Origin: Paramagnetospirillum marisnigri | GTDB taxonomy: Bacteria; Pseudomonadota; Alphaproteobacteria; Rhodospirillales; Magnetospirillaceae | DNA: 64,000 nucleotides | NCBI RefSeq assembly: GCF_001650715.1 | Contig: NZ_LWQT01000055.1 | Coordinates: 186,001-250,000 of the forward strand | Reading direction: 5' to 3' | Part shown: positions 5,679-54,705 of the stretch, in pieces | Layout of the letters: each line of letters starts with the position of its first letter | How positions within the stretch are numbered: the stretch's first letter is position 1 | The notes under the pieces: model-generated | The model's database searches: none | Told to the model about the DNA's origin: nothing | Seen by the model: only the letters and a program-made list of their open reading frames with translations | Translations under genes and position numbers: made by a program

Positions 5679-6902
5679 ATGCACAGCTTGAACACCTACC
5701 GCGCGGGACCCGACGAGCGCGGCCATTTCGGCATTTTCGGCGGCCGCTACGTGGCCGAGACCCTGATGCCCCTGATCCTCCAGGTGGAGAAGGCCTATGC
5801 CGAGGCCAAGGCCGACCCCGCCTTCCAGGCCGAATTCCGCGACTTGCTGTCCCAATATGTCGGGCGGCCCAATCCGCTGTATTTCGCCCGTCGCCTGACC
5901 GAGGCCTTTGGCGGCGCCAAGGTCTTCCTGAAGCGGGAAGACCTCAACCATACCGGCGCCCACAAGATCAACAACTGCATCGGCCAGATCCTGTTGGCCC
6001 GGCGCATGGGCAAGCAGCGCATCATCGCCGAGACCGGCGCCGGTCAGCACGGCGTCGCCACCGCCACCGTCTGTGCCCTGTTCGGCATGCAATGCGTCAT
6101 CTATATGGGCGCCACCGACATCGAACGGCAGATGCCCAATGTCTACCGCATGAAGCTGCTGGGCGCCGAGGTCAAGCCGGTCACCTCCGGCGCCGCCACC
6201 CTCAAGGACGCCATGAACGACGCGCTGCGCGACTGGGTGTCCAATGTGGAGAGCACCTATTACCTGATCGGCACCGTCGCCGGTCCCCATCCCTATCCCG
6301 CCATGGTCCGCGATTTCCAGTCGGTGATCGGCGAGGAAGTGCGCGCCCAGATCCTGGCCCAGGAAGGCCGCCTGCCCGATAGTCTGGTGGCCTGTATCGG
6401 CGGCGGCTCCAACGCCATGGGCCTGTTCCATCCCTTCCTGGACGAGCCGAGCGTCCGCATCATCGGGGTCGAGGCCGCCGGACACGGGCTGGACAAGCTG
6501 CATGCCGCCTCGCTCACCGGGGGCAAGCCCGGCGTGCTGCACGGCAACCGCACCTATCTGCTGCAGGACGCCGACGGCCAGATCGCCGAGGCCCATTCCA
6601 TCTCGGCCGGGCTGGACTATCCCGGCATCGGGCCGGAACATTCCTGGCTGCACGAGACCGGCCGGGTCGAATACGTCTCCATCAAGGACGACGAGGCGGT
6701 TGTCGCCTTCCAGCAATGCACCCGCCTGGAAGGCATCATTCCGGCGCTGGAATCCAGCCACGCCATCGCCCATGCCGCCAAGATCGCGCCCTCGCTGCCC
6801 AAGGATCACCTGATGGTGATCAATCTGTCGGGCCGTGGCGACAAGGATGTCTCCACCATCGCCAAGGCACTGGGCGACGAACATCTGGGGGGACTCGTCT
6901 GA
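5679..6902 (+). CDS. trpB: Tryptophan synthase beta chain
   Basis: Catalyses the PLP-dependent condensation of indole with serine. At 407 aa it is full length. The PLP lysine is Lys96 in GAHKINN; the phosphate-binding loop GGGSNAMG and the catalytic-region sequence [12 protein letters not shown] are present. Start ATG 5679 gives [15 protein letters not shown], the usual N-terminus; the frame is open back into ftsY but that part is not conserved. It lies 52 bases after ftsY with no trpF immediately upstream in the window, so trpB may have its own promoter or share the upstream one. The stop overlaps the trpA start by one base (TGATG). Confidence 0.97.
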
Positions 6903-7702
6903 TGAGCAAGCGTCTGGACGCCCGCTTCGCCAAGCTGAAATCCGAGAATCGCGCCGCCCTGGTGACCTTCATCACCGCCAGCGATCCCGACCGCGCCACC
7001 AGCCAGGTGGTGCTGAACGGTTTACCCGGCGCGGGCGCCGATATCATCGAGCTGGGCATGCCCTTCACCGATCCCATGGCCGATGGCCCCGCCATCCAGC
7101 TAGCGGCGCAACGCGCCCTGGCGGCGGGCGGCTCGCTGAAGGTCACCCTGGAGATGGTGGCCGAGTTCCGCAAGACCGACAAGGACACCCCCATCATCCT
7201 GATGGGCTATTACAATCCCATCTATGCCTGGGGGCCGGAAAAGTTCGCGGGTGACGCCGCCCTGGCCGGGGTGGACGGGCTGATTATCGTCGACCTGCCG
7301 CCCGAGGAAGCCGACGAGCTGGTGCCCTTCCTCAAATCCGCCGCCATCGACTTCATCGTGCTGACCACGCCCACCAGTGACGATGCCCGCCTGCCGGTGG
7401 TGCTGGCCAATGCCTCGGGTTTTGTCTACTACGTCTCCATCGCCGGAGTGACCGGGACCAGTTCGGCCACCGGCGCCGCCATCGAAGAGGCGGTGAGCCG
7501 CATCCGCCGCCATACCGATCTGCCGGTCTGCGTCGGCTTCGGCATCAAGACCGCCGATCAGGCCGCCGAGGTTGCCCGGCTGGCCGAAGGCGCCGTGGTG
7601 GGTTCCGCCATCGTCTCCGTCCTGGCCGAGACCCGCTCGGCCGAGGCGCCGCTGGCCCTGGTCAAGGACCTGGCCAAGGGTGTGCGGGAAGCACGGCTTT
7701 AG
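6902..7702 (+). CDS. trpA: Tryptophan synthase alpha chain
   Basis: Cleaves indole-3-glycerol phosphate to indole, which is channelled to the beta subunit. The protein is a 266-aa TIM barrel. The catalytic Glu is in [15 protein letters not shown], Asp in the same motif, and the GVTG loop ([11 protein letters not shown]) and the phosphate-binding GFGIKTADQ are all visible. ATG 6902 shares a base with the trpB stop, ensuring stoichiometric expression. The upstream open frame inside trpB is a shadow. Confidence 0.97.
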
Positions 7703-7739
7703 AGTCTAATTTCACAGCCTTCGACCGAGGAAATTGCTC

Positions 7740-8660
7740 ATGAACTGGCTGACCAACTTCGTCCGTCCCTCGCTGAAGGAAAAGCTGAAGGGGCTGGTGA
7801 CCCAGAAGGAAGTGCCCGACAATCTGTGGCACAAATGCCCGGGCTGCGGTCACATGATCTTCCACCGCGACCTGGAAAAGGCGTTGAATGTCTGCCAGCA
7901 CTGCGGCCATCACATGCGCCTGTCGGTGAAGAAGCGCCTGGGCATGCTGTTCGACGAGGGCCATTACCAGCGCATCGAGCTGCCCAAGGTCGCCGACGAC
8001 CCGCTGAAGTTCAAGGACCAGAAGCGCTATACCGACCGGCTGAAGGACACCCGCTCCAAGACCGGCGAGCATGACGCCATCGTGGTCGCCCATGGCAAGA
8101 TGGGTGGCATGAACGTGGTGGTCGCCGCCTTCAATTTCGACTTCCAGGGCGGCTCCATGGGCATCGCCGTGGGCGAGGGCATCGTCGCCGCCGCCGAACT
8201 GGCGGTGTTGCAGGACGCGCCGCTGATCGTGGTGCCCGCCTCGGGCGGGGCGCGCATGCAGGAAGGCATCCTGTCGCTGATGCAGATGGCCCGCACCACC
8301 GTGGCGGTGGACAAGGTCAAGGAACGCCGCCTGCCCTATATCGTGCTGCTGACCGATCCCACCACCGGCGGCGTCTCGGCCAGCTTCGCCATGCTGGGCG
8401 ATATCGCCCTCGCCGAGCCCGGCGCGGTGATCGGCTTCGCCGGGGCCCGCGTCATCGAATCCACCATCCGCGAAAAGCTGCCCGAGGGCTTCCAGAAGGC
8501 GGAATACCTGCTGGAACACGGCATGATCGACATGGTGGTGCCGCGCCGCGACCTGCGCGCCACCCTGGTGCGCATCCTGTCGCTGCTGAAAAACCGGGCA
8601 CCCGCCGGGGAATTGGTGGCGCTGCCCATCGACACCCCCGACGCGGTGGACGAGGATTGA
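7740..8660 (+). CDS. accD: Acetyl-CoA carboxylase carboxyltransferase beta subunit
   Basis: Forms, with AccA, the carboxyltransferase that makes malonyl-CoA. It is 306 aa. The N-terminal zinc ribbon has Cys33, 36, 52 and 55 (CPGC ... CQHC); the crotonase-fold part includes SGGARMQEG and TDPTTGGVSASFA, typical of the family. I prefer ATG 7740 to the in-frame TTG at 7734 because GAGGA lies at a better distance from the ATG. The stop overlaps the folC start, and the order trpA-accD-folC is a common arrangement in proteobacteria. Confidence 0.97.
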   Translation: MNWLTNFVRPSLKEKLKGLVTQKEVPDNLWHKCPGCGHMIFHRDLEKALNVCQHCGHHMRLSVKKRLGMLFDEGHYQRIELPKVADDPLKFKDQKRYTDRLKDTRSKTGEHDAIVVAHGKMGGMNVVVAAFNFDFQGGSMGIAVGEGIVAAAELAVLQDAPLIVVPASGGARMQEGILSLMQMARTTVAVDKVKERRLPYIVLLTDPTTGGVSASFAMLGDIALAEPGAVIGFAGARVIESTIREKLPEGFQKAEYLLEHGMIDMVVPRRDLRATLVRILSLLKNRAPAGELVALPIDTPDAVDED

Positions 8661-9961
8661 TCGATTCCATCCTGGAGCGCCTGACCCGGCTGCATCCCAA
8701 GGTCATCGACCTGTCCCTGGACCGGGTGTCGCGCCTGCTCGACGCCCTGGGCAATCCCCAGGACCGGCTGCCGCCGGTGGTGCATGTGGCCGGAACCAAC
8801 GGCAAGGGCTCCACCGTCGCCACCCTGCGGGCCCTGGCCGAGGCGGCGGGCCTGCGCGTCCATGTCTATACCTCGCCCCATCTGGTGCGCTTCGCCGAGC
8901 GTATCCGGGTCAACGGCGTCCTGCCCACCGATCCGGAGCTGCTGGCGCTGCTCGAAGAGGTGGAGGCCGCCAATGGCGGCCAGCCCGTCACCTTCTTCGA
9001 GATCACCACGGCGGCCGCCCTGCTGGCCTTCGCCCGGGCTCCGGCCGATCTCTGCATCCTGGAAACCGGGCTGGGGGGACGGCTGGACGCCACCAATGTA
9101 GTCGCGCGGCCCGCCCTGACGGTGCTGACCCCCATCGCCATGGACCACCAGAACTTCCTGGGTGGCCGCATCGAATCCATCGCCGCCGAGAAGGCGGGGA
9201 TCATGAAGCGGGGCGTGCCCTGCGTCATCGCCAAGCAAGGTCGCAAGGTGGTCAAGGTGCTCGAGGCCCGCTCCGGCGAGCTGGGCGTGCCGCTTTACAA
9301 GGAGGGTGAGGATTTCTTCGTCCGCACCCGCCCCGATGGCGGCCTGATCTATCGCGGCAAATCGGTGGAATGGTCGCTGCCCGCCCCCAATCTGGCGGGC
9401 GGTTTCCAGTCGCGCAACGCCGCCCTGGCCCTGGCGGCGGTGGAACGCCTGTCGCGACTGAACGTGCCGCCGGTCTTTCCCGACTTTCCCGACGCCGCCC
9501 TGGGCATGGGCCTGCGCTCCATCGACTGGCCCGCCCGGCTGCAACGGCTGAGCGCCGGACCGCTGGTGGAGCTGCTGCCCGAGGGCTGGGAACTATGGCT
9601 GGATGGCGGTCACAATCCCCATGCCGCCGAAGCCCTGGCCCAGCATACCCGCAATTGGCGGGACAAGCCCCTGGCCGCCGTGTTCGGCATGCTGTCCACC
9701 AAGGATGTGGATGGATATATGGAACCGCTGGCGCCCCGCTTCCATGCGCTGCGCGGTATCGCCATTCCGGGCGAGGACGCCTCGCTGTCGGCCGAGGACG
9801 CCGCTGGCGCCGCCACCCGCCATTTCTGCCTGGACGCCCGACCGGCCGCCGACGCGGCCGATGCCGTTCACCAACTGCTCCGAGTGGTGCCCGGCCCCGC
9901 CCGCATCCTGATCTGCGGCAGCCTTTATCTGGCCGGCACGATCTTATCAGTGCATCGGTAG
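8657..9961 (+). CDS. folC: Bifunctional folylpolyglutamate/dihydrofolate synthase
   Basis: Adds glutamate to dihydropteroate and folates; a Mur-ligase-family ATPase of 434 aa. The P-loop GTNGKGS is at 46-52, followed by TSPHLVRFAERIRVNG, the family signature, and ETGLGGRLDATN and AMDHQNFLG for the Mur-ligase centre. The start is an unusual TTG at 8657 overlapping the accD stop (TTGA); no ATG sits near the conserved N-terminus, so this choice is firm. Probably translationally coupled to accD. Confidence 0.93.
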   Translation: MIDSILERLTRLHPKVIDLSLDRVSRLLDALGNPQDRLPPVVHVAGTNGKGSTVATLRALAEAAGLRVHVYTSPHLVRFAERIRVNGVLPTDPELLALLEEVEAANGGQPVTFFEITTAAALLAFARAPADLCILETGLGGRLDATNVVARPALTVLTPIAMDHQNFLGGRIESIAAEKAGIMKRGVPCVIAKQGRKVVKVLEARSGELGVPLYKEGEDFFVRTRPDGGLIYRGKSVEWSLPAPNLAGGFQSRNAALALAAVERLSRLNVPPVFPDFPDAALGMGLRSIDWPARLQRLSAGPLVELLPEGWELWLDGGHNPHAAEALAQHTRNWRDKPLAAVFGMLSTKDVDGYMEPLAPRFHALRGIAIPGEDASLSAEDAAGAATRHFCLDARPAADAADAVHQLLRVVPGPARILICGSLYLAGTILSVHR

Positions 9962-9980
9962 TATATCCCTTGTTTGGGTG

Positions 9981-10009
9981 TTGACATAACCGCTCTGACT
10001 CGCAATCTG
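9981..10009 (+). promoter_or_regulatory. Candidate sigma-70 promoter upstream of the hemerythrin-fusion gene
   Basis: A perfect TTGACA (9981-9986) lies 71 bases before the next gene. The best -10 at 17-base spacing is AATCTG, which is poor, so this is only a candidate. The gap between folC and the next start (9962-10057) holds nothing else that I can see. Confidence 0.3.
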
Positions 10010-10057
10010 AATGGATTATGCCTTTTGATCGGCATGGGCGGACCGGGAGGGGCTTAG

Positions 10058-11557
10058 ATGATTACATGGCGCGATGCCATGTCCGTGGGCTCGCCAGCCC
10101 TCGACGCGGATCACAAGAAGCTGATCGAACTGCTGAATCTCGCCGAGGAATGGGTCAGCCGCGAGGCCTGGCCCCAGGTGTCGGCGGTGATCGACGATCT
10201 GATGGCTTATGTGCGCGACCACTTCGCGCGCGAGGAAGCGGTGCAGCTCGCCATCAAATATCCCGAGGCCGAGTCCCATAAGAAGCTGCACGAAGCCCTG
10301 TCCATGAAGACCCGGCTTTTGCACGACAAATTCAAGGCGGCCCCCAATGACGAGGCCCGCAAGACCTGCGGCCAGGTGCTGATCAAAGTCCTGAACGAGT
10401 GGCTGATCGACCATATCCTGAAGCAGGACATGAAGTTCAAGGCCTTGATCCCCAAGAAGGCGCCGTCACCGGCCCCGGCGGCCGAGTTGCAGATGGGCAT
10501 GGCCCAGCCCAGCGAGGCCGAGCTGGCCGCCGAGCGGCGTGCCCGCATGGAAGCCCGCCACAAGGATATCGAATACGAGCTGCCGCCCAATCTGGCCCAT
10601 CTGCTGAAGCGGATCGAATACGTCATCCCCGAGCTACCGCCCCCCACCAAGGGGTTCGAGACCTTCGAGAAATTCGTCGAGGCCACCATCTGCCGCCGGG
10701 TGGACAAGGTGCTGGTGTTCTTCCAACGCCATAACCCGGCGCTGAAGCTGGAACTCCCCACCTTCTTCCTGGCCTCGCCGGAATTCGCCGAGAAGTTCCA
10801 TCAGGCCATCGGCAAGTTCATCATTCCGGTGATCTGGGAAAGCCGCCAGATTCGCGTCCTCGCCACCAGCTTCGCCTGGGCCGAGGAGGATACCGACAGC
10901 TTCTGGGAACACGTCACCCGTGGCCTGGAACAATGCATCCTGCAGGGCTGGACCCAGGCCTGGGATGACCTGAAACTGGTCGAAACCAAGAAGGACGGCC
11001 AGAAGGTCTTCCAGGTCAAGGATTCCACCCGGGCGCTGCGCGACATGCTGCTGCCATCGGATCCCATGGTTTACGACATCCCCAAGATCGGCAATCGCGA
11101 GATCGAGGTCTTCAAGTCGCTGCTGGACCCCGCCAATGACTGGTGGAACAGCCTGAACCGCTCGTGGCGCATCTGCCACGACCTCTACGAGCAGGAAAAG
11201 GACCCCCGCATCTTCCAGCAGAAGGCCCGCGACGGTGCTTTCCGCGACGGATTGCTGAGCGCCTTCAACCGCTTCCCGCCGGACTGGGTGGATTTCATGG
11301 TCCTGGCCTGTCACCGGGTCTTCCCCCGGGTCTCGACCCAGTTCCTGGAGAGCTTCGGCACCAATCTGGGGCGCAACGAGATCGAGCGCGAGGCCCATAT
11401 CCCCTACACCATCCGCTATCTGCGCCAGGCGCGCGAGATTCCAGAAATCCGCCACCGCGAGATGGAGGAGGAACGGGAATGGCACGCCAGGGTCAAGGAG
11501 TTGAGCGACTACCTCGCCCACCGGGAAAGCAAGGACAAGGACAAGGCGGCGGGATAG
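10058..11557 (+). CDS. Bacteriohemerythrin domain fused to a long uncharacterised C-terminal domain
   Basis: A 499-aa protein. Residues 1-130 form a bacteriohemerythrin with the whole diiron ligand set: His19, His55, Glu59, His74, His78, His119 and Asp124. It should therefore bind O2 reversibly at a non-haem diiron centre. After a Pro/Ala linker (KKAPSPAPAAELQ), about 350 residues follow that I do not recognise: soluble, Trp- and aromatic-rich, with no membrane segment, HAMP or GGDEF motif. Free bacteriohemerythrins are about 130-150 aa, so this is a real fusion. Possible roles include oxygen sensing or delivery to the C-terminal domain; this is inference. The gene is convergent with manC, the stops being 2 bases apart. 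Confidence 0.85.
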   Translation: MITWRDAMSVGSPALDADHKKLIELLNLAEEWVSREAWPQVSAVIDDLMAYVRDHFAREEAVQLAIKYPEAESHKKLHEALSMKTRLLHDKFKAAPNDEARKTCGQVLIKVLNEWLIDHILKQDMKFKALIPKKAPSPAPAAELQMGMAQPSEAELAAERRARMEARHKDIEYELPPNLAHLLKRIEYVIPELPPPTKGFETFEKFVEATICRRVDKVLVFFQRHNPALKLELPTFFLASPEFAEKFHQAIGKFIIPVIWESRQIRVLATSFAWAEEDTDSFWEHVTRGLEQCILQGWTQAWDDLKLVETKKDGQKVFQVKDSTRALRDMLLPSDPMVYDIPKIGNREIEVFKSLLDPANDWWNSLNRSWRICHDLYEQEKDPRIFQQKARDGAFRDGLLSAFNRFPPDWVDFMVLACHRVFPRVSTQFLESFGTNLGRNEIEREAHIPYTIRYLRQAREIPEIRHREMEEEREWHARVKELSDYLAHRESKDKDKAAG

Positions 11558-11559
11558 GC

Positions 11560-12954
11560 CTATCGCCCGTAGGCGTCCTCCAGGCGCACGATATCATCCT
11601 CGCCCACATATTCGCCCGACTGCACCTCGATCAGGCGCAACGGCACCTTGCCGGGATTTTCCAGCCGATGCGGCGTCCCCGCCGGAATGAAGGTGGATTC
11701 GTTCTCGCGGAGCACGAAGGACGTGTCGCCGCAGGTCACCACGGCGGTGCCCCGCACCACCACCCAATGCTCCGAGCGATGCCAGTGCTTTTGCAGGGAT
11801 AGTTTCGCACCCGGATCGACATGGATGTGCTTGACCTTGAAGCGCTCGCCCTGCTCGATGGTCTGGAACCAGCCCCAGGGACGCCAGCCCCGGCTGCCCT
11901 GGGTGGCCTCGGGACGGCCTTCCCGCTTCAGGGCCTCGACCACCGCCTTGACCTCCTGGTCGCGGGACTTGTCGGCCACCAGCACCGCGTCATCGGTAGC
12001 GATCACCACCAGATCGTGTACGCCCACCGTCGCCACCAGATGATCATGGCTGCGCAGATAGCAATCACTGCTGTCGATGGCCAGGACGTCGCCCTTGATG
12101 ACATTGCCCGAGGCGTCGCGGGTGGATTCCTGCCACAGCGCCGACCACGAGCCGATATCCGACCAGCCCATGTCGACGGGCACCACCGCCACCTGGGTGG
12201 AATGCTCCATCACCGCATAGTCGATGCTCTGGCCCTTCAGCCCGGCGAAGGTCTCGTCATCCAGGCGGAAGAAGAACAGGTCCGAGCGGCCCTTGGCCAG
12301 GGCGGCGCGGCAGGTATCGGCCATGCCCGGGGCATGGGTCTCCAGCTCGGACAGGAACAGCCCCACCGGCAGCAGGAAGATGCCGCTGTTCCAGGTGTAT
12401 TCCCCCGAGGCGAGATAGGATTGGGCGGTGGCGAGGTCGGGCTTCTCCACGAAGCGCTCCACCTCGAAGCCGTCACCCAGCGGGCGCCCCGCCTTGATAT
12501 AGCCATAGCCGGTATTGGGGCCGGTGGGCTGGATGCCGAAGGTGACCAGCCGCCCGCCCTGGGCCAGCGGCACCGCCGCCTCGACGGCGCGGCGGAACGC
12601 CTCGGTGTCGACGATCAGGTGATCGGACGGCATCAGCAGCATCAGGGCGTCCGGATCGGCATCGGCCAGCATCAGCGCCGCCACCGCCGCCGCCGGGGCG
12701 GTATTGCGTCCCACCGGCTCGATCACCACCGCCCTGGGTTCCAGCCCGACCTCGCGCAGTTGCTCGGCGACGATGAAGCGGTGCTCGTGATTGCACACCA
12801 CCACCGGCGGATGGCCGAGGCGCAGCGCGGTCTCCTGCAGCAGAGTGCGTTCGCCCGTCAGCTTCAGCAGCTGCTTGGGCATCAGTTCGCGCGACAGGGG
12901 CCACAGCCGGGTGCCGGCGCCGCCGGACAGGATCACGGGAATGACGGAGCTCAT
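11560..12954 (-). CDS. manC: Mannose-1-phosphate guanylyltransferase / mannose-6-phosphate isomerase
   Basis: Makes GDP-mannose for surface polysaccharide. At 464 aa it has the two expected domains: the nucleotidyltransferase (VILSGGAGTRLWPLSRELMPKQ signature in two parts at the N-terminus, FVEKP further on) and a C-terminal cupin with HWHRSEHWVVVRGTA and GTPHRLENPG. Start ATG 12954 gives MSSVIPVILSGG; a further upstream frame extends into the neighbouring gene. The start overlaps the stop of the preceding epimerase gene, so the minus-strand genes from 14893 to 11560 form one coupled unit. Confidence 0.93.
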   Translation of the reverse strand: MSSVIPVILSGGAGTRLWPLSRELMPKQLLKLTGERTLLQETALRLGHPPVVVCNHEHRFIVAEQLREVGLEPRAVVIEPVGRNTAPAAAVAALMLADADPDALMLLMPSDHLIVDTEAFRRAVEAAVPLAQGGRLVTFGIQPTGPNTGYGYIKAGRPLGDGFEVERFVEKPDLATAQSYLASGEYTWNSGIFLLPVGLFLSELETHAPGMADTCRAALAKGRSDLFFFRLDDETFAGLKGQSIDYAVMEHSTQVAVVPVDMGWSDIGSWSALWQESTRDASGNVIKGDVLAIDSSDCYLRSHDHLVATVGVHDLVVIATDDAVLVADKSRDQEVKAVVEALKREGRPEATQGSRGWRPWGWFQTIEQGERFKVKHIHVDPGAKLSLQKHWHRSEHWVVVRGTAVVTCGDTSFVLRENESTFIPAGTPHRLENPGKVPLRLIEVQSGEYVGEDDIVRLEDAYGR

Positions 12955-40517: not shown

Positions 40518-40592
40518 GCGGGCGTAGCTCAGGGGTAGAGCACAACCTTGCCAAGGTTGGGGTCGAGGGTTCGAATCCCTTCGCCCGCTCCA
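40518..40592 (+). tRNA. tRNA-Gly (anticodon GCC), integration target
   Basis: Acceptor arm GCGGGCG pairs with CGCCCGC, followed by discriminator T and an encoded CCA. D-arm GCTCAGGGGTAGAGC, anticodon stem-loop AACCTTGCCAAGGTT with GCC at the centre, and T-loop GGTTCGAATCC are all standard. The 3' half (from 40548) is duplicated at 54654, marking it as the attB of the island; the island has restored the tRNA sequence exactly. Confidence 0.96.
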
Positions 40593-40599
40593 ATCGGAC
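40548..40599. repeat. attL, 52-bp direct repeat
   Basis: Begins TTGCCAAGGTTGGGGTCGAG inside the tRNA anticodon arm and ends CCAATCGGAC past the CCA. Identical to 54654-54705 over all 52 bases; the next base differs (C versus T). Confidence 0.95.
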
Positions 40600-40655: not shown

Positions 40656-40731
40656 TATACGGATTATAAACGGTTCTGCCCCTGTATAGACGGAATTATG
40701 ATGCTCTCAATGGGTTGCGAGAGAGCAGGGT
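40656..40731 (+). promoter_or_regulatory. Integrase leader, copy 1
   Basis: Contains TATACGG, TATAAACGG and TATAGACGG motifs, then GGAATTATGATGCTCTCAAT and a GCTCTC ... GAGAGAGC inverted repeat just before the start codon. Nearly identical to the leader at 41331-41398 and related to that before the long integrase gene. Confidence 0.7.
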
Positions 40732-40815
40732 ATGGCGCAGGACAACGATAATCCGGTCAGGATTCAATGGTGCGCCAAATCAAAATTTGTGGTCTGCATG
40801 CCCCCGGATTGGTAG
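40732..40815 (+). pseudogene. Truncated integrase 5' end, copy 1
   Basis: ATG 40732 opens with MAQDNDNP, the same start as the integrase at 42353, then diverges and stops at 40815 (27 codons). A remnant of a duplicated integrase start. Downstream lies the block TTCAATGGTGCG (40763-40774), which recurs after copy 2. Confidence 0.7.
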
Positions 40816-40873
40816 CATGTCCGCCATATGTCGAACGTTTTATCCCGCAACAACCTGATTGGGAGCCGCTGAG

Positions 40874-41302
40874 ATGTTGCACCCCAAAAATCAGCCATTT
40901 CCCGCACATCTTTTAGATTTTTCTATATTGGTCGTCGAGGATTGTACGACGACCAATAAAATTATTAAGAAGTTGTTATTAGTAGATGGGTTTAAAAACA
41001 TTCACTCTGTAAATAATGGTCAAGAGGCAATCAAATACCTCGATTCTGTCGAGAGAGTACCTGATATAATCCTTGCGGACTGGTTAATGCCAAATATTGA
41101 TGGATTGCAACTTTTGGAACATGTAAGAAATATTAGTCCACATTGCATTTATATTATGGTTACGGTTCTAGATAATCAAGAAGACGTTATGTTAGCAAAG
41201 GCTCACCATGTCGATGGTTATATTGTTAAGCCTGTAACCAGACGTAAGCTTATCGATGAAATTGAATTGTCTGTATCAAGACTATCTATTGCTCATGATT
41301 GA
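40874..41302 (+). CDS. Receiver-only response regulator (CheY/Spo0F type)
   Basis: 142 aa with a single receiver domain and no output domain. Acidic pair in LVVEDC (Glu22, Asp23), phospho-acceptor Asp69 in IILADWLMPNIDG, switch Thr in MVTVLD and Lys in IVKPV are all present, so it should be phosphorylatable. Strikingly AT-rich against the chromosome. ATG 40874 has GGGAG upstream. It stands alone between two truncated integrase leaders. Its partner kinase could be the island kinase at 53026; that is inference. Confidence 0.88.
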   Translation: MLHPKNQPFPAHLLDFSILVVEDCTTTNKIIKKLLLVDGFKNIHSVNNGQEAIKYLDSVERVPDIILADWLMPNIDGLQLLEHVRNISPHCIYIMVTVLDNQEDVMLAKAHHVDGYIVKPVTRRKLIDEIELSVSRLSIAHD

Positions 41303-41330
41303 GTAATAGATTTTAATTTACTGAGCGTTG

Positions 41331-41398
41331 CCATAAACGGTTTTGCCCCGACTTAGACGGAATTATGATGCTCTCAATGGGTTGCGGGAGAGCAGGGT
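41331..41398 (+). promoter_or_regulatory. Integrase leader, copy 2
   Basis: Matches copy 1 from CATAAACGGTT through TAGACGGAATTATGATGCTC to AGAGCAGGGT with a few differences. Same position relative to the start codon. Confidence 0.7.
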
Positions 41399-41524
41399 AT
41401 GGCGCAGGACAACGACGATCCCGGCAAGAAACCCACGAAATTGGGACGAGAGCCAAAGGACACCCTCGTTGCTATCAACGTGCTGAGTGATCGCAAGCAT
41501 TATCGCCCATCCAATTCCCCCTGA
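41399..41524 (+). pseudogene. Truncated integrase 5' end, copy 2
   Basis: MAQDNDDPGKKPTKLGREPK then DTL, matching the first 23 residues of the long integrase (MAQDNENPGKKPTTMEREPKGTL) before diverging and stopping at 41524. Longer than copy 1. The 12-base block TTCAATGGTGCG follows at 41566-41577, as after copy 1. Confidence 0.75.
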
Positions 41525-41615
41525 CCGGGAATCCACCACCCCATCAGCCAGCCCAGTCATCTCTGTTCAATGGTGCGAGCGGGTGGCTAATATCTGCCGT
41601 AACCAGAGGTGCTGC

Positions 41616-42269
41616 ATGAGTCTTCAATTTAGATATGGGTTTCGGGCAGTTTCCGCCATCACCGTTCTGGTGGTGTTTGCGTTGTCGCTGATTCGCTACA
41701 ATGAATTTTTAACAATGCGTGAAGATGCACAATCTAAACGATCAAATTTTGAGGTACAGATTCAAAGACGAAATAATCTATTTGGCAATCTAATTAACTT
41801 GACACTAAACCATGCCGCACTTGAAAGTTCTGTTTTTAATCATGGCGCAGATAAGCGCACTGAAGGCTTGGCAAATAGCTCTATTAAACATGAAATTTTT
41901 GGAATAGAACAAATTTTAGCTAAAAATGGATTTAGTTCTGCTTACGGTAAAATCATGGCTTATTCCGAAAGCTATCCAGACATCAAATCAGTAAAATCAT
42001 ATAAATCAACCATGTCTTCCTTGGTTGAAATGGAAGAGAGAATAGCAAATAATAGAGTGTTGTATAATGAATCTGCTTCAAAATTTAATTCTGAAATTAG
42101 AAAATTACCATGGAAGTACCTTGCAATAATTACTGGATTCACAGAGAGAGAATATTTCCACCAAGGACAGGAAAATACTGCTATTATCAACGCCCCAATT
42201 GTTGCTCCTGAGATGTATAAACAATTGATCCCTTTAGATAATTCTCATGCGCCTCATAAGTCTCAATAA
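41616..42269 (+). CDS. LemA-family membrane-anchored protein
   Basis: 217 aa. A single N-terminal membrane segment (AVSAITVLVVFALSLI) precedes the LemA pattern: YNEFLTMREDAQSKRSNFEVQIQRRNNLFGNLI, ESYPDIKSVKSYKSTMSSLVEMEERIANNRVLYNESASKFN and IRKLPWKYLAIITGF. The RRxxLxxNL and YPDxK blocks are reliable family marks. LemA has no settled biochemical role; the magnetosome protein MamQ belongs to this family. AT-rich. ATG 41616 is used; it follows the truncated integrase copy 2 by 91 bases. Confidence 0.82.
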   Translation: MSLQFRYGFRAVSAITVLVVFALSLIRYNEFLTMREDAQSKRSNFEVQIQRRNNLFGNLINLTLNHAALESSVFNHGADKRTEGLANSSIKHEIFGIEQILAKNGFSSAYGKIMAYSESYPDIKSVKSYKSTMSSLVEMEERIANNRVLYNESASKFNSEIRKLPWKYLAIITGFTEREYFHQGQENTAIINAPIVAPEMYKQLIPLDNSHAPHKSQ

Positions 42270-42284
42270 TTATTTATATATATT

Positions 42285-42352
42285 ATTCTAAAAGGTTCTC
42301 CGGATTATAGACGGAAGTATAATGTTCTCGCTAATTTACGGGAGAGCAGTGT
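42285..42352 (+). promoter_or_regulatory. Integrase leader, copy 3 (in front of the long integrase)
   Basis: Shares ATTATAGACGGAAGTATAATG and GGGAGAGCAGTGT with copies 1 and 2 but is more diverged upstream. TATAATG could be a -10. The GTTCTC ... GAGAGC pairing overlaps the ribosome binding site. Confidence 0.6.
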
Positions 42353-43627
42353 ATGGCGCAGGACAACGAGAACCCCGGCAAAAAACCCACGACAATGGAA
42401 AGAGAGCCGAAGGGCACCCTCGATAGCCGGACATTCCGAGACGGGCAAATCTACCTGTTCCGCCGTCAGGACTACGTAAAGCCGATCTGGTTTTGCCGGA
42501 TCAAGGTTCCGTCTATTTCCGGTTATGTCTCCCGCAGCACCCGAACGACCAACGAACACGAGGCATTTCGGTTCGCCGAAGACCTCTATAACCGGATGCT
42601 GGTCAAATCGATCCAGGGGCACGACATCAACGGTAAGAGAGTGTCGGCTGCGATCACGGAATACGTTGAGGCTCAGACCGCCACCGCCTCCCAGAAACTC
42701 TCGACCAAGCTTCGGTGCCAGTATCTCGAACGGATCAAGCCGTTCTTCGGGACGCTCCAACTCAATGAGATGACGACCGCCACCGTGGTTGATCTGCTGG
42801 CTTGGATGGAGAAGCACTCCAGGACCAATGAACTGTCGCCGAACACGATCAAGAGGTATGCGACAGACCTGAAGCAGTTCCTCAATTGGGCGCTTGAGAA
42901 GGACTACATCGCCAAGATTCCCTCATTCCCCAAACTGCGGATCGGTCACAATCGCCGCCCTCACTTCGACCAGCGGGACTACGCCAAACTGACTCGGTAT
43001 CTGAGGGAGTTCGTGAAACACGAAAACTCGAAGACCGTCCGGGATCGAACGATGCTGGCGAATTACGTCCTTATCCTCGCTAATACCGGGATTCGGGTTG
43101 GGGAGGCTCGGACGCTCAAGTGGAGAGACATTCGGGATATTCCGGCGTCAAAAGCTGGAGAATCGGCAAATATCGCCCTCTATGTAACCGGCAAGACGGG
43201 TCCGAGAGAGGTTGTCGCCAGGACGCCTGACGTGAAGACGTATCTCAAGCGGCTGCTCTAGCTTCGGATCGATGAACTGGAGGGGGTCAAGCCCAAGCCT
43301 GACGGCTTCGTCTTCTGCAATCGGGATGGCGAGGCTATCGGGTCATTCAAGAAGTCGTTTGCCACCCTGATCAAGGATGCCGGTGTGGAATTTGACAGCC
43401 ACGGTGCCCGCCGGTCGATCTATTCCCTCCGTCACACGTATGCGACGTTCCGCCTCCAAGAAGGTGTCCACCAGTTCATTCTTGCCAAGAACATGGGGAC
43501 CAGCACGGCGATGTTGGAGCGCCACTACGGGCACACGTCCAACATCGCCTCTGCCGATGAACTGACCAAAGGCGGCAGCTTCAAGGGTGGGAAAAAGTCC
43601 CAGGCGGTCGATTGGCTGCTGGACTAG
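42353..43627 (+). pseudogene. Tyrosine recombinase (island integrase) interrupted by an amber codon
   Basis: Starts MAQDNENPGKKP. Residues about 75-180 are a SAM-like core-binding domain; the catalytic domain begins near 210 with the first Arg in TGIRVGEARTLKW. TAG at 43259-43261 ends the frame after YLKRLL. The same frame then continues without a gap (LRIDELEGVKPKPDGF) to TAG 43625, carrying YSLRHTYAT (catalytic Arg and His) and MLERHYGHTS with the nucleophilic Tyr. The intact protein would be about 424 aa, normal for a tRNA-targeting integrase. As read, the first product lacks the nucleophile and cannot recombine; a one-base change or suppression would restore it. Confidence 0.87.
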
Positions 43628-44820: not shown

Positions 44821-46260
44821 TTACGCAGCTTCCTCATCATCTATGAAACTTGATAAGTCTAGCTGTTGCAAAAACCTATATGTAGACCTTCTAGTTTTAG
44901 AATCCAGCTTGTGTTCATATAGATACAAACCTTCTGGTGCATCAATAAGGATTCTCTTAAGCTGGATCGGAAAACTTCCCAGGCTTGTTTTTGTTTCTGG
45001 GAATCTGTCTTTTTTCCATTCCACATAATTATAGTACAGCCTATCTATCCCCATAAAATCTCGATATCCTCCTGTCTCATAGATTGAAGCAAGCCATGCT
45101 TCCATTGCTGTAGAGGCTTTTTGCTCCTTCTGAAAACTCATCAGGATTTGAAGAATCTCAGAGCCTTCAAGCGGTGATGCAGCGTTCTCATCCACAGACC
45201 GCCACAGGTCCAACGGATCGACCTTTTCCTGCAACTCGCTCATCACCAGGTACAGATCCTGTCTCACCTCAATCTGGAAGAACCGTCGTAACCCGGTCGG
45301 ATCATGAAAAACCTCTGCTAGATCCAGATTTCCGGCACCGAAGAACGTAGACATGATCCGTCCCTTCGTTGCCTCCCCGTATAGCTTCCTGAACATGGCG
45401 GTTTCGCTGGTCATCAGATTTTTGACCTTGGCGTAATCCGCCTTGTCAGCCCGAGCTACCTCGTCGAACAAGATGATCGGTGTGTCCCTGAGAAAGATCG
45501 TCTTTTCATCGTGTTCGAACATCTCGAACGTCGTGCTGGTGACGCCCTCCTGAACCGGCTCAAAAAACCACTTCAGAAAGGTTGACTTGCCACACCCTTG
45601 ACGCCCCCGGAGGTACGACATGATGTGCTGACTGACGGGCTTGCCGTTGAGCTTGTTCTTAACCCGCCAGACTGCCCCTCTCAGGACCGCAGACGCTGCT
45701 GCCACATAATCGGGATCATCGACCCTGCGCAGAAGCTTTCTAACGATGAAATCCCATTGATCTGGGGCATCCTCGGTAAAGGCGATCTTCGCCTTAAACA
45801 CGCCCAGATGCTCCTCCAAGGTTTCTTGCTTCCAGTTTTTCCACCCAGCCATCATCAAGTCTCTGCGGACTTTATCAATATGGTTGGAGCAAAGAAGGAA
45901 AATCTTGTTGAACATATAGTCGTCTGATACATCCACGCCATTAACGGTCAGCCTGTGGTCTAGTGAGTAATGAACATTGTTGGCTTTTGCCCACTTGTTT
46001 ACATAATCAGCGTAACCGTTAAAAACGCCTCCAAGCTCAATCTTCATGGTCATTGATTTGCACAATGCGTCAATGTCTTTCCCTAACATTTGGGTGTGAT
46101 TCAGCAGAGCGCTTTTCAAATTTTCTACCGTGGCAATGTCTGTTCCACTCCATTCTTTGGCTAGATAAATGATGGATTTAAGCTTGTCCTTATCAGTTAG
46201 CTTAGCATCGGCAGGATAGGAATTCAGTTGTTCGATATATTCTTCTAGTGCCATAATCAT
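44821..46260 (-). CDS. VapE/D5-like SF3 helicase (virulence-associated E family)
   Basis: 479 aa. P-loop GRQGCGKS at 219-226, Walker B in TPIILFDEVAR, and sensor-like FFGAGNLDLAEVFHDPTGLRRFFQIEV are the pattern of VapE/primase-C-type helicases of phages, satellites and plasmids. These form rings that unwind DNA at a replication origin and usually work with a primase, here encoded directly upstream. ATG 46260 has AGGAG 7 bases upstream; the frame's longer start is rejected. A palindrome at 46285-46303 lies in front and may be an operator. Confidence 0.85.
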   Translation of the reverse strand: MIMALEEYIEQLNSYPADAKLTDKDKLKSIIYLAKEWSGTDIATVENLKSALLNHTQMLGKDIDALCKSMTMKIELGGVFNGYADYVNKWAKANNVHYSLDHRLTVNGVDVSDDYMFNKIFLLCSNHIDKVRRDLMMAGWKNWKQETLEEHLGVFKAKIAFTEDAPDQWDFIVRKLLRRVDDPDYVAAASAVLRGAVWRVKNKLNGKPVSQHIMSYLRGRQGCGKSTFLKWFFEPVQEGVTSTTFEMFEHDEKTIFLRDTPIILFDEVARADKADYAKVKNLMTSETAMFRKLYGEATKGRIMSTFFGAGNLDLAEVFHDPTGLRRFFQIEVRQDLYLVMSELQEKVDPLDLWRSVDENAASPLEGSEILQILMSFQKEQKASTAMEAWLASIYETGGYRDFMGIDRLYYNYVEWKKDRFPETKTSLGSFPIQLKRILIDAPEGLYLYEHKLDSKTRRSTYRFLQQLDLSSFIDDEEAA

Positions 46261-46284
46261 ATAATTTCTCCTAAAATGAGATGC

Positions 46285-46303
46285 CGAAAGAACCGTTCTT
46301 TCG
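46285..46303. promoter_or_regulatory. Palindromic operator-like site before the helicase gene
   Basis: CGAAAGAA-CCG-TTCTTTCG, perfect 8-base arms, centred about 34 bases upstream of the start codon. A related palindrome lies before the gene at 47691. Confidence 0.5.
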
Positions 46304-46338
46304 ATTATTAATTCTCTCACATTAGGCTATTTTAAAAT

Positions 46339-46378: not shown

Positions 46379-47176
46379 TTAGTGGTTATTGATGTAGTGA
46401 ATCAAAGAGCCGAACCGAGGGCTCTTATCGTGGTCATAGCCTCTGAACAGAGCGTCATATTCTCCAGACCTCTCTGCTGGGAAATGTCTCTGCATTAGGC
46501 TTTTCGCAATCTCCACCCCACATTCGCTCGCACATGCGAATGCAATCAGTCGCCAATCGTCATAGGTCGGTCTGGAATCCCTCTTGGCAGCCTCCATCAA
46601 CGCCTTTTCCAGCTTGTTCGGGGTGACATTGCTGACCGTGAATTCTTCACCCCGAGTCACTGCTTTGGACCGTTGCGGTTGAGGTGGAGAGCATTTCTCT
46701 AGCCAGAAATCCATGAGGTATTTCGGGATGGTCTTGAGGTCATCAGAGCAGGTTGGCTGGTTGATCCAGCGGTATCTCCCGGTCTCTGGGTGAGGGCTTG
46801 GGGGAATAACTGACTGAGACCCAGCCCAGCGGAATTCTAGTTTCTTACCGGGTCCAACCTTAATGGTTTTAAGTGAAGCCCAATATTCTTCTGGAACTGA
46901 ATAGGCAATCTGTGCCCGTCCAGGCTTTCCGCTGGTCCACATGACGCTGTTGGTTGGTTTCTTTTGAAACTGCTGTTGATAGAATTCAATTGCCTCAGTT
47001 CCATCAAAGTCTAAAGCCATAACCCCACTTGATAGTGGACCTAGGAGCAAGCCATAGCCATATTTTGTAAAGTCAATTTGTTCATAGGCAAGAGGCTTAT
47101 TTGTCCAGTCTTTTGTGACTGGGCTTTTCTCAAGAACTGGTGTAAAACGCCAATTTTCCATAACCAAAACCGTCAT
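46379..47176 (-). CDS. Bifunctional primase/polymerase (prim-pol) domain protein
   Basis: 265 aa. An archaeo-eukaryotic primase superfamily domain: GYGLLLGPLSSGVMALDFDG carries the catalytic Asp pair (Asp56, Asp58), RAQIAYSVPEE a conserved strand, and LEFRWAGSQSVIPPSPHPETG the basic/histidine region. The C-terminal part (YDDWRLIAFACASECG) resembles a primase C-terminal helical domain. It should prime island DNA replication and partners the SF3 helicase. ATG 47176 with GGAG upstream. Confidence 0.85.
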   Translation of the reverse strand: MTVLVMENWRFTPVLEKSPVTKDWTNKPLAYEQIDFTKYGYGLLLGPLSSGVMALDFDGTEAIEFYQQQFQKKPTNSVMWTSGKPGRAQIAYSVPEEYWASLKTIKVGPGKKLEFRWAGSQSVIPPSPHPETGRYRWINQPTCSDDLKTIPKYLMDFWLEKCSPPQPQRSKAVTRGEEFTVSNVTPNKLEKALMEAAKRDSRPTYDDWRLIAFACASECGVEIAKSLMQRHFPAERSGEYDALFRGYDHDKSPRFGSLIHYINNH

Positions 47177-49872: not shown

Positions 49873-50544
49873 ATGGCGAGGGCAGTGATGCGATGCGTGG
49901 CGTATTACCGGGTCAGTACGGTGAAACAGGGTGCTTCTGGTCTCGGACTGGAGGCGCAGCAAATGTCGGTTTCGGAATATGTCGGTCGCCAGGGGTGGGA
50001 ACTGGTCGGCTCGTTCACCGAGATCGAGAGTGGGAAGAAGGCTGATCGTCCCCAGCTGCTCAAGGCACTGGAACATTGCCGCCGGTACAAGGCGACTCTG
50101 GTGATTGCCAAGCTCGACCGGCTCGCCCGAAATGTCGCCTTCGTCTCCAACCTGATGGAAGCCGGGACCGATTTCGTCGCAGTGGACTTCCCCCATGCGA
50201 ATCGGCTGACGATCCATATCCTGGCGGCTGTTGCCGAGCATGAGAGGGAGGCAATCTCGGCGAGGACCAAGGCAGCATTAGCGGCTGCCAAGGCAAGAGG
50301 GGTCAAGTTGGGAAATCCTAACGGAGCCGCTGCCCTCGCTGGGCTCGGCAATCAAGCCGCTGTGGCAGCAAACCGAATCAAGACCGAACAGCGGAGGATG
50401 GAATACGCCAGGCTGTTCGCTGAGATCAAATCTGAAGGTTTCTCAACGATTTCCAGCATCGTTCTGGAACTCAACCGAAGAGGAGTCCCGTCCCCAAGGG
50501 GTGGGAAATGGCATCTGGCGACGGTCCATAGACATCTCAAATGA
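49873..50544 (+). CDS. Serine recombinase (resolvase/invertase family)
   Basis: 223 aa. The catalytic Ser is in AYYRVSTVKQ; LVIAKLDRLARNVAFVSNLMEAG with the DRxxR arginines and EREAISARTKAALAAAKARGVKLG at the start of helix E are typical. A C-terminal helix-turn-helix (EGFSTISSIVLELNRRGVPSPRGGKWHLATVHRHLK) binds DNA. The size fits a small resolvase and not a large integrase. It could resolve or invert DNA within the island, or derive from a transposon. Confidence 0.9.
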   Translation: MARAVMRCVAYYRVSTVKQGASGLGLEAQQMSVSEYVGRQGWELVGSFTEIESGKKADRPQLLKALEHCRRYKATLVIAKLDRLARNVAFVSNLMEAGTDFVAVDFPHANRLTIHILAAVAEHEREAISARTKAALAAAKARGVKLGNPNGAAALAGLGNQAAVAANRIKTEQRRMEYARLFAEIKSEGFSTISSIVLELNRRGVPSPRGGKWHLATVHRHLK

Positions 50545-50893: not shown

Positions 50894-51319
50894 ATGATCA
50901 AATTGACGCCTGATTTGCTAATTGGCAATGCAACAATCGACCATGATCATGAAAAACTTGTAAAAATAATAAATGAATTTTTAGAACACTCAAAATCTAT
51001 TAGCAATGTTGAATTAATGAGTGAGACTTTAAAGTCATTGCTAGATTATACAAAGTTTCATTTTGAGCGTGAAGAAAAAATACAAAAAGAATGCATGTAT
51101 CCGTATTATAATATGCATCACCACGAGCATAAAGCTCTCGTCATGCAAATTCAGGAAATGGCACGAACCTACTTTATTGAAAAAACAAAGCCGGTTGATA
51201 AAAATTCTATTAACATGTTAAATCAACTTCTAAAGACATGGCTTTTTGACCATATAAAGAAATTTGACACCAATATGAGACAATGGGTTAATCCCGATTG
51301 GCAACCTCCACAGCCATAG
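50894..51319 (+). CDS. Bacteriohemerythrin (island copy)
   Basis: 141 aa, single domain. Ligands His19, His56, Glu60, His75, His79, His120 and Asp125 give the complete diiron site. Very AT-rich and distinct from the chromosomal fusion at 10058. Stand-alone bacteriohemerythrins bind O2 and have been linked to oxygen supply or sensing in microaerophiles. ATG 50894 with AGGA upstream. Confidence 0.9.
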   Translation: MIKLTPDLLIGNATIDHDHEKLVKIINEFLEHSKSISNVELMSETLKSLLDYTKFHFEREEKIQKECMYPYYNMHHHEHKALVMQIQEMARTYFIEKTKPVDKNSINMLNQLLKTWLFDHIKKFDTNMRQWVNPDWQPPQP

Positions 51320-53025: not shown

Positions 53026-54417
53026 TCAGGTTGAGACTGACCCGTCCTTGAGCGTGAAGAAAAATGTCGTGCCAATGCCCGGTTCCGACTTCAACCAGAT
53101 GGCTCCCCCAAAACGATGTACAATTCGCCGACATAGGGTAAGTCCGATCCCCGTGCCTTCCGCATTGGAAACAGGGTCCAGTCGCTGGAATATCTCGAAA
53201 ATCTTGTCGTGGTATTGCGGTTCAATCCCGATACCATTATCCGCAACGGCAAAGACCCAATGATCAGATAAATCTCGCTTTGCCGTGACCGAAAGTCGAA
53301 GTTTTCGATCCGGATAGCGGTATTTCAGGCTGTTTCCAAACAAGTTCTGAAACAAGCTCGTAAGAAGGGATGGTTCAGCAATTACCAGCGGCATTTCCCC
53401 AACCTCTATTTCTGCACCTGCCTCTTCCAGTTCCACTTTCAGATTGCCCAATGCATGCTCGATTGCTTCATTGGCTCGGACTGGATGTGGTGGGAAAGGT
53501 TGTTTGGTGATCCGAGCGTATTGGAGAAGGTCATCAATCAGCTCACTCATGTGCTTACCGCCATGCACGATGAAGCCAATAAATTCATCTGCATCTTTAT
53601 CAAGACGACCTTTGTAGCGGCTCTCAAGCAATTGTGAAAACCGGACGATGTTTCGCAGTGGCGTTTGAAGATCATGAGATGAAATATAAGCAAACTGCTC
53701 AAGATCTAAATTCGACCTTTCAAGCTCATTGTTTTTGTCTATTAGTGCCAGTTCAGCATTTTTTCGCTCCAATAACAGTCTCTCATTGACCATCAACGTA
53801 AATGATATGAGCCACCCAATTACAAAAATAATTTGTTCATAAAGAACAAGCGCATTAATTGACGTTTTTGAAAATATGTCTTTTACACCTTCGCTTGGAA
53901 TAGATATAGCTGCGCAGATCAAGAATGATGCTGCAAGAATTGTCAAAAATATAGACGCTGCTATATATGACCGGAAACGGTTTTTTTGATAATCATTAAT
54001 TATTATTGCCAATGCGATAGTGCAAATTACCGCATAAACGGTGAGGTAGCAAACAAGTCTAATAATATAATTATCTTCAATAAAATAATAATAGATATAC
54101 TCGGCGCCGTATGCCGCTCCGCATAGTATTAATAATTTAACATTTGCTTTTTTACCTGAAAATACCAAAACACCATAAAGGACAAGGGCATAACCGTAAA
54201 AAATAGCTATATTTGCAGCGGCAAATGACAACCAAGCAGGCAAGAATGCACGCAATGCAATTGCGCTAAATCCGATAGCAAAGAATGAGCTAGAGAGGGC
54301 AACTGCCTTTACGCCTCTGATGTGCCTGTTATTAAAATAAAGAAACCACGCAAACCCGCATGCTAGAATCGACACTCCGCCGAGCACAAAAAATAAGGTT
54401 GATATGTCGAGTTGCAT
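53026..54417 (-). CDS. Membrane histidine kinase (island copy)
   Basis: 463 aa. Residues 1-210 contain about seven hydrophobic segments (LDISTLFFVLGG, CGFAWFLYFNN, SFAAANIAIFYGYAL, IFVIGWLISFTLMV). A short coiled linker leads to the HisKA domain with His248 in SSHDLQTPLRNI, then an ATPase domain with QNLFGNSLKY (N box), VADNGIGI (G1) and GTGIGL (G2). No HAMP, PAS or receiver domain. Its sensor half aligns without gaps to the kinase at 57830. ATG 54417 with GGGGGAG upstream. The receiver-only protein at 40874 is a possible partner. Confidence 0.92.
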   Translation of the reverse strand: MQLDISTLFFVLGGVSILACGFAWFLYFNNRHIRGVKAVALSSSFFAIGFSAIALRAFLPAWLSFAAANIAIFYGYALVLYGVLVFSGKKANVKLLILCGAAYGAEYIYYYFIEDNYIIRLVCYLTVYAVICTIALAIIINDYQKNRFRSYIAASIFLTILAASFLICAAISIPSEGVKDIFSKTSINALVLYEQIIFVIGWLISFTLMVNERLLLERKNAELALIDKNNELERSNLDLEQFAYISSHDLQTPLRNIVRFSQLLESRYKGRLDKDADEFIGFIVHGGKHMSELIDDLLQYARITKQPFPPHPVRANEAIEHALGNLKVELEEAGAEIEVGEMPLVIAEPSLLTSLFQNLFGNSLKYRYPDRKLRLSVTAKRDLSDHWVFAVADNGIGIEPQYHDKIFEIFQRLDPVSNAEGTGIGLTLCRRIVHRFGGAIWLKSEPGIGTTFFFTLKDGSVST

Positions 54418-54653
54418 GGTCTCCCCCACAACTTTATTCCAAAGCAGGTTACGCTTTTCGAGGAAGCGTGAGAAGGGCGCATGAATTAACCACCACGGTC
54501 CAGGTCACCGTCCAGAACCTTGCCTCGATGCGTTGTAGGGGGCTTTCTGGCTTTAGCTGGACTTCCTGACGCCTCTCATATACGGTTTATCTACGGATTT
54601 ATTCCAGCGCTAATACAGCATTGTAAATCAATTAGTTAGCTGCGATGCGCCGT
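54418..54653. other. Island right end with integrase arm-type motifs
   Basis: No gene. TATACGG (54579-54585) and TCTACGG (54590-54596) echo motifs at the left end (40656-40693). AAATCAATTAGTTAG (54625-54639) matches 14 of 15 bases with 40605-40619 just inside attL. These are candidate integrase or excisionase binding sites. Confidence 0.5.
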
Positions 54654-54705
54654 TTGCCAAGGTTGGGGTCGAGGGTTCGAATCCCTTCGCCCGCTCCAAT
54701 CGGAC
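54654..54705. repeat. attR, 52-bp direct repeat
   Basis: Exact copy of 40548-40599. It holds only the 3' half of tRNA-Gly and is not a functional tRNA. Confidence 0.95.

Follow-up and report, generated by a model that had tools for sequence, protein, structure and literature searches.

The question raised by the stretch of Paramagnetospirillum marisnigri DNA analysed here (64,000 nucleotides; positions 186,001 to 250,000 of contig NZ_LWQT01000055.1, assembly GCF_001650715.1; referred to as the window) is how the region upstream of an integrase gene, which we will call the leader, came to be present three times in tandem, with two of the copies followed by truncated integrase starts and single AT-rich genes. 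The three leaders, the two integrase stubs, a 12-base block and the two AT-rich genes lie together at the left end of an integrative element of 14.1 kb, which is located at a tRNA-Gly(GCC) gene and is bounded by a 52-bp exact repeat. This left end is probably what remains of three or more related integrative elements that were serially integrated at one attachment (att) site and then reduced by deletions. The source genome is a 4.62-Mb draft of 131 contigs with a completeness of 99.99%.

Left end of the tRNA-Gly element

In the manner of a tRNA-targeted element, a tyrosine integrase adjoins the 3' end of the tRNA gene and a direct repeat is found at the far end. The G+C content of the element block is 46%, and that of both AT-rich genes, referred to below as cargo genes, is 36%, as compared with 66–67% in the flanks. 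The features of the left end and of the borders, all on the plus strand, are as follows.

40518..40592, +, tRNA-Gly (gcc), the integration target, identified by ARAGORN
40548..40599, +, attL core, exact 52-bp repeat of 54654-54705
40656..40675, +, arm-site doublet of the left side, composed of arms I and II and the sole full one there; recognised by its motif, function putative
40667..40731, +, integrase leader copy 1, with arms II and III and the ribosome site
40732..40758, +, integrase fragment 1, 9 codons
40763..40774, +, first copy of the 12-base block TTCAATGGTGCG, at the edge of the response-regulator segment
40874..41302, +, response regulator with a receiver domain only (Pfam PF00072, Response_reg, 1e-21)
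41331..41398, +, integrase leader copy 2, without arm I
41399..41467, +, second integrase fragment, of 23 codons
41466..41615, +, tail of a small open reading frame (ORF) and upstream region of mamQ, with the second TTCAATGGTGCG; aligned with locus L085
41616..42269, +, short-form mamQ (NCBIfam NF040966)
42285..42352, +, integrase leader copy 3, without arm I
42353..43627, +, tyrosine integrase, 302 codons before an interrupting stop at 43259-43261
54579..54597, +, right arm-site doublet
54654..54705, +, attR core, 52-bp copy of the 3' part of the tRNA

An earlier note on this DNA, made from its sequence, had reported the three leader copies, the integrase starts broken off after 9 and about 23 codons, the shared block and the AT-rich character of the genes that follow, and all of these observations were borne out. 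The leader copies are in register over 115 nucleotides (nt) at 40687, 41354 and 42308, and they lead into the starts ATG GCG CAG GAC AAC GA. at 40732, 41399 and 42353; relative to the middle copy, the other two are 70% and 83% identical. When copy 1 was used to search the whole genome, copies 2 and 3 were retrieved with E values of 8e-30 and 6e-14 and the next match had an E value of 0.05, which excludes chance as the source of the repetition. In the 45 nt before the ATG, leaders 1 and 2 agree at 44 positions, whereas their agreement with copy 3 extends to only 34 and 35, and copy 3 thus represents a diverged leader. The coding positions also vary, with stubs 1 and 2 alike at 23/27 and copies 2 and 3 differing at 10/69. 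The block TTCAATGGTGCG occurs three times in the 4.62 Mb of the genome, at 40763, at 41566 and on contig C109.

The leader appears to be a control region of the integrase itself, made up of probable arm-type sites and a ribosome site. It carries TAnACGG repeats near the integrase start, and doublets of this type were found upstream of 23 of the 33 related integrases that were counted (the set excludes locus L186), as compared with 6 of 554 control windows. Within the window the doublet motif has four plus-strand matches, two of which lie within the element, at its two ends (40658 and 54581). Judging from this position, the doublets are probably arm-type integrase sites, and TACGGATTATAAACGG, present in the leader and in the right-end doublet, is a candidate sequence for such a site. 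The full doublet is present in leader copy 1 only, and copies 2 and 3 start at its second half; the absence of arm I from these two fits a left end marked by copy 1, and in this way speaks for serial integration.

Two other roles for the leader were considered. A stem can be drawn in each of the three copies, but their folding does not clearly exceed that of shuffled sequences (z of -0.86, -1.56 and -2.32 for the three copies, and -0.55 and -0.35 for two leaders of the rpsD-type units described below), and the hairpin regulator was rejected as a special feature. For a promoter of the cargo, a scan for sites of the sigma-70 type gave seven matches against 4.3 expected, none of them within a leader, and for this promoter type the role finds no support.

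Independent homes of the two cargo genes

Both cargo genes end near the leader that follows them, within about 30 nt and at the same arm. Because each gene abuts the leader after it, the repeating unit proposed in the earlier note (integrase start, shared block, cargo) is out of phase with the DNA. A terminator-like hairpin of 12 pairs is present at 41284-41311, at the end of the response regulator and just before leader 2.

Relatives of the response regulator (76–82% identity) were found at five loci in four genomes of the genus, and no leader was present within about 1.5 kb of any of them. The DNA similarity of these loci to the element is confined to the regulator region, except for one weak match elsewhere in L093, and in L092 it begins at about 40775, directly past the 12-mer. 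The relative with 82% identity (genome G143) is flanked on both sides by the att sequence of this same tRNA-Gly, the two copies being separated by about 19 kb, and for this reason the gene has probably already travelled on an element at the tRNA-Gly site. In L123, the response regulator is the immediate neighbour of guaA.

The second cargo gene had been described as LemA-like. A LemA domain match is indeed present at 41616-42269, but this label is too general, as the protein is assigned to MamQ by NCBIfam NF040966 with a score of 300.3 bits (cut-off 250). With 217 amino acids (aa), it is missing the extended N terminus that canonical MamQ (272 aa) possesses. Its identity with five other short forms is 78, 75, 74, 70 and 69%, and with two long forms 47–50%, and in a tree the six short forms are separated from the two long ones at 100/100. 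The mamQ-like gene of the AMB-1 magnetotaxis islet, published at 446504-447079 (PMC2818848), is a short form with 75% identity to that of the window; from the fit of these coordinates with a short mamQ at 446429-447052 in genome G139 we infer that G139 is AMB-1. Short mamQ genes outside the magnetosome island are already described (PMC2818848), magnetosome paralogues outside the clusters are noted (PMC6819731), and AMB-1 MamQ is reported to be needed for magnetosome formation, which is not reported there for the short form (PMC3905215).

No leader was found at six loci carrying mamQ relatives, within about 1.5 kb on each side (one locus, L068, gave no DNA match in the comparison of relatives with their flanks). 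In L085, mamQ is preceded by a whole 92-aa ORF. In the window, the 23-codon integrase stub runs straight into the last 18 or so codons of this ORF, followed by the mamQ upstream region. The match to L085 over 41466-41556 was equalled by none of 2000 shuffles and starts at the first base tested, and the stub preceding the junction does not match the 92-aa ORF. The copy 2 junction is thus a fusion scar within a gene. The second TTCAATGGTGCG (41566-41577) is located inside the mamQ upstream region, and relatives align over this region without keeping the 12-mer. A shared 12-mer arose in 2 of 3000 shuffles of both segments, in a test picked after the match was seen. As a module the block was rejected: two of its three genomic copies are found here, but it is not a conserved feature of the mamQ upstream region in relatives.

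The L085 mamQ lies within 6735-12644 together with a kinase 61% like that of the window and the o250 gene, beside guaA (identified by Pfam) and an integrase. As no repeat of at least 14 nt was detected at the guaA side in the 14 kb examined, L085 can be referred to as a putative element only. In L083 (2640-4407), a short mamQ is followed by a hemerythrin-receiver protein (Pfam), the hemerythrin part of which is 60% like that of the window. The source genome has a second short mamQ on contig C79 (L086), beside mamE-, mamM-, mamO- and mamB-type genes, the mamO-type gene scoring below the cut-off. Neither long-form MamQ nor MamP was found in this genome at E<=1e-10, and the main magnetosome island may have been lost or may be missing from the assembly. 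Within the tRNA-Gly element, mamQ is the sole mam-type gene recognised in the part of the ORFs that was scanned.

Probable serial integration and the alternatives to it

In the history that we favour, each incoming element would have contributed an arm-site/leader region plus its own integrase. Subsequent deletions would have cut two of the integrases to stubs of 9 and 23 codons, removing at the same time the element bodies and the internal att sites that the lost DNA would have carried. One gene per lost element, namely the response regulator and the short-form mamQ, would be left ahead of the next leader, and the leader would be the regulatory region of the integrase, neither a promoter for the cargo nor a recombination cassette. 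As in an accretion array, three leaders with three different coding starts are present at one att site.

Nested integration of related elements, which was one of the possibilities raised in the earlier note, has two precedents. The first is L043, a locus of the same genus located beside rpsD, in which three tandem units have att-side repeats at 6463, 11285 and 13449, and the integrase of the middle unit is internally deleted. The second, L189, from a Phenylobacterium metagenome-assembled genome, shows the order tRNA-Arg, integrase A, arm doublet, 28 nt repeated from the 3' part of the tRNA, arm doublet and integrase B; integrases A and B are 34 and 43% identical to that of the window and 30% identical to each other. 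The same note had held that repeats unique to this locus would speak against its proposal. With regard to sequence the locus is indeed nearly alone, as a search of 317 genomes of the order with the leader DNA gave matches outside the locus in seven other genomes at E <= 0.01 (best 0.001, <=50 nt), but its layout is not.

The two ways in which the internal att sites could have been lost correspond to these precedents. A deletion may have extended from the stub through the att site to the cargo, if the cargo sat between att and leader as it does in the rpsD units, or recombination may have occurred between arm doublets flanking the att site, as laid out in L189.

Several observations weigh against serial integration. 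No tRNA or att remnant is present in the DNA separating the leaders, where no match is longer than 10 nt, whereas the L043 array keeps its repeats, and two clean losses of att must therefore be assumed. The distance of about 30 nt within which the cargo genes end before the next leader, at the same arm, looks more exact than random deletion would produce. Leaders 1 and 2 are alike at 44/45 positions and their coding stubs at just 23/27, which suggests conversion or duplication between these copies. The shared 12-mer is left unexplained. Lastly, comparable integrase stubs were seen in no other relative examined: upstream of 34 relatives, the only repeat covering integrase codons was integrase A of L189, present whole, in a one-strand self-search (E <= 0.01) that may overlook stubs only a few codons long and for which L186 began inside the gene and L169 offered only 392 nt of upstream DNA.

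These 34 were drawn from 43 relatives found for the window's integrase family (all except L190-L198, nine in number). In 23 of them, the integrase frame opens 23–241 nt past a tRNA (14 tRNA-Gly gcc, 5 Val, 3 Thr, and 1 Arg); of the other 11, one is 867 nt off, seven have no tRNA in the available DNA and three have another layout. Arm-site repeats are present upstream in four relatives (L171, L172, L181 and L189).

A reading compatible with serial integration, possible but in our view doubtful, is that the gap between att and leader is a slot in which a single cargo gene is exchanged by recombination between conserved flanks, the stubs of the window being a record of imperfect swaps. The rpsD-type units are the main source of this idea. 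In L041, L043, and L045, tandem units beside rpsD carry differing response regulators between the att side and the integrase. The gene rpsD, identified in L041 by the Pfam domain Ribosomal_S4, is present in seven of the eight loci of this type, the other being L049, a 3.9-kb contig. Twelve leaders of this type were examined in seven genomes, five of which belong to the genus, one to the wider family and one to the wider order. A response regulator ends 1–71 nt upstream of 11 of them, with at least three dissimilar classes represented, and the twelfth is preceded by a 75-aa ORF. When five regulators were scanned with Pfam, four scored above the cut-off, including three slot genes, and the fifth, located downstream of an integrase, scored below it. 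The flanks of the two L041 units are 91–95% identical and their regulators only 21.6% identical to each other, and both cargo genes of the window likewise end just ahead of a leader. However, the 12 units are not independent (seven genomes, one integrase clade, and 7/11 regulators of one class), exchange by itself yields no integrase stubs, and among relatives of the window's integrase the slot usually holds nothing, since the 23–241 nt seen in 23/34 relatives leave too little room for an ordinary gene. The broader proposal is just as tentative, namely that, in the genus and close relatives, integrase families unrelated to each other share the att-to-leader gap as a one-gene docking slot through which elements swap signalling and magnetosome genes. 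If it were true, the rpsD and tRNA-Gly arrays would serve for trying out response regulators, and a mamQ copy, and for spreading them one by one, not as whole islands.

It is rather improbable that the integrase 5' region was simply duplicated in place and that unrelated genes were later inserted between the resulting copies. In favour of this, leaders 1 and 2 are almost identical and att remnants are lacking between copies, but copy 3 differs from both at about one-quarter of the leader sites and from copy 2 at 10/69 coding positions. Because of these differences, the copies look like different integrase alleles. Duplication also leaves unexplained that the cargo is known at other loci, in one case between att copies of the same tRNA. 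Very improbable is the iterated capture favoured by the cassette layout of the earlier note, in which leader and shared block would act as a module repeatedly acquiring single genes: each of the two cargo genes does lie between leader copies, they share the 12-mer (2/3000 shuffles), and in L181 an arm-site copy and a 429-aa ORF precede arm sites and an integrase, but the cargo relatives examined have no leader, the copy-2 12-mer is mamQ upstream sequence not conserved in relatives, the copy 2 junction falls inside a gene, the proposed unit is out of phase and the remaining 316 genomes of the order contain only short and weak matches to the leader.

Comparison with known systems and remaining content of the element

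Tandem accretion of integrative elements, and their decay to derivatives of the cis-mobilizable element (CIME) type, are known concepts, and CIME-type remnants are described as keeping their flanking att sites. The array resembles them in that related elements are stacked at one tRNA, with integrase modules deleted and cargo left; it differs in that internal att sites are absent and integrase stubs remain. The rpsD-site units are similar in their order (att-side repeat, response regulator, leader, integrase), in their tandem arrangement and in the presence of one damaged integrase, but their integrases are 31–35% identical to that of the window, their repeats are kept and their site is beside rpsD and not a tRNA. 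The likeness to integron gene cassettes, in which single genes are lined up beside an integrase, looks superficial: the leader and 12-mer of the window do not travel with the genes, which excludes these two as a recombination site carried by each gene, and one junction lies inside a gene. In common with the AMB-1 islet (PMC2818848), the window has a short-form mamQ that is AT-rich and outside the magnetosome island; that islet is, however, about 22 kb long with seven mam-like genes, whereas here, among the ORFs scanned, a lone mam-type gene was recognised on a tRNA-Gly element.

Layering and decay of integrative elements is ordinary; it is less familiar for such an element to carry a magnetosome gene, and the literature searched yielded no account of a tRNA-Gly element with mamQ, nor of regulator arrays at rpsD. 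A MamQ-family gene on this element, with sister copies beside an integrase (L085, at guaA) and a hemerythrin-receiver protein (L083), suggests how magnetosome genes located outside the main island could be transferred individually. In the rpsD arrays, the placing of single response regulators next to integrases seems to be a recurring pattern.

The element may now be stranded, because its integrase is not intact: the in-frame stop is missing in L145, a 55% relative in which a single frame runs across both parts. Among phages no relatives of the window integrase were found, nor did a scan of viral contigs and a first scan of genome contigs detect any; its plasmid relatives are limited to two distant matches. 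Further genes of the element are listed below.

44821..46320, -, VapE-like helicase (PF05272, 1e-16)
46379..47176, -, primase-polymerase (Prim-Pol; PF09250, 8e-16)
49873..50544, +, serine resolvase (PF00239, 1e-30)
50894..51319, +, hemerythrin (PF01814, 6e-14)
53026..54429, -, histidine kinase next to attR (PF02518 and PF00512)

The hemerythrin has a relative that adjoins mamQ in L083 (60% in tblastn), and the attR-side histidine kinase has relatives at other islands, with tblastn identities of 61% in L085 and 43% in L155.

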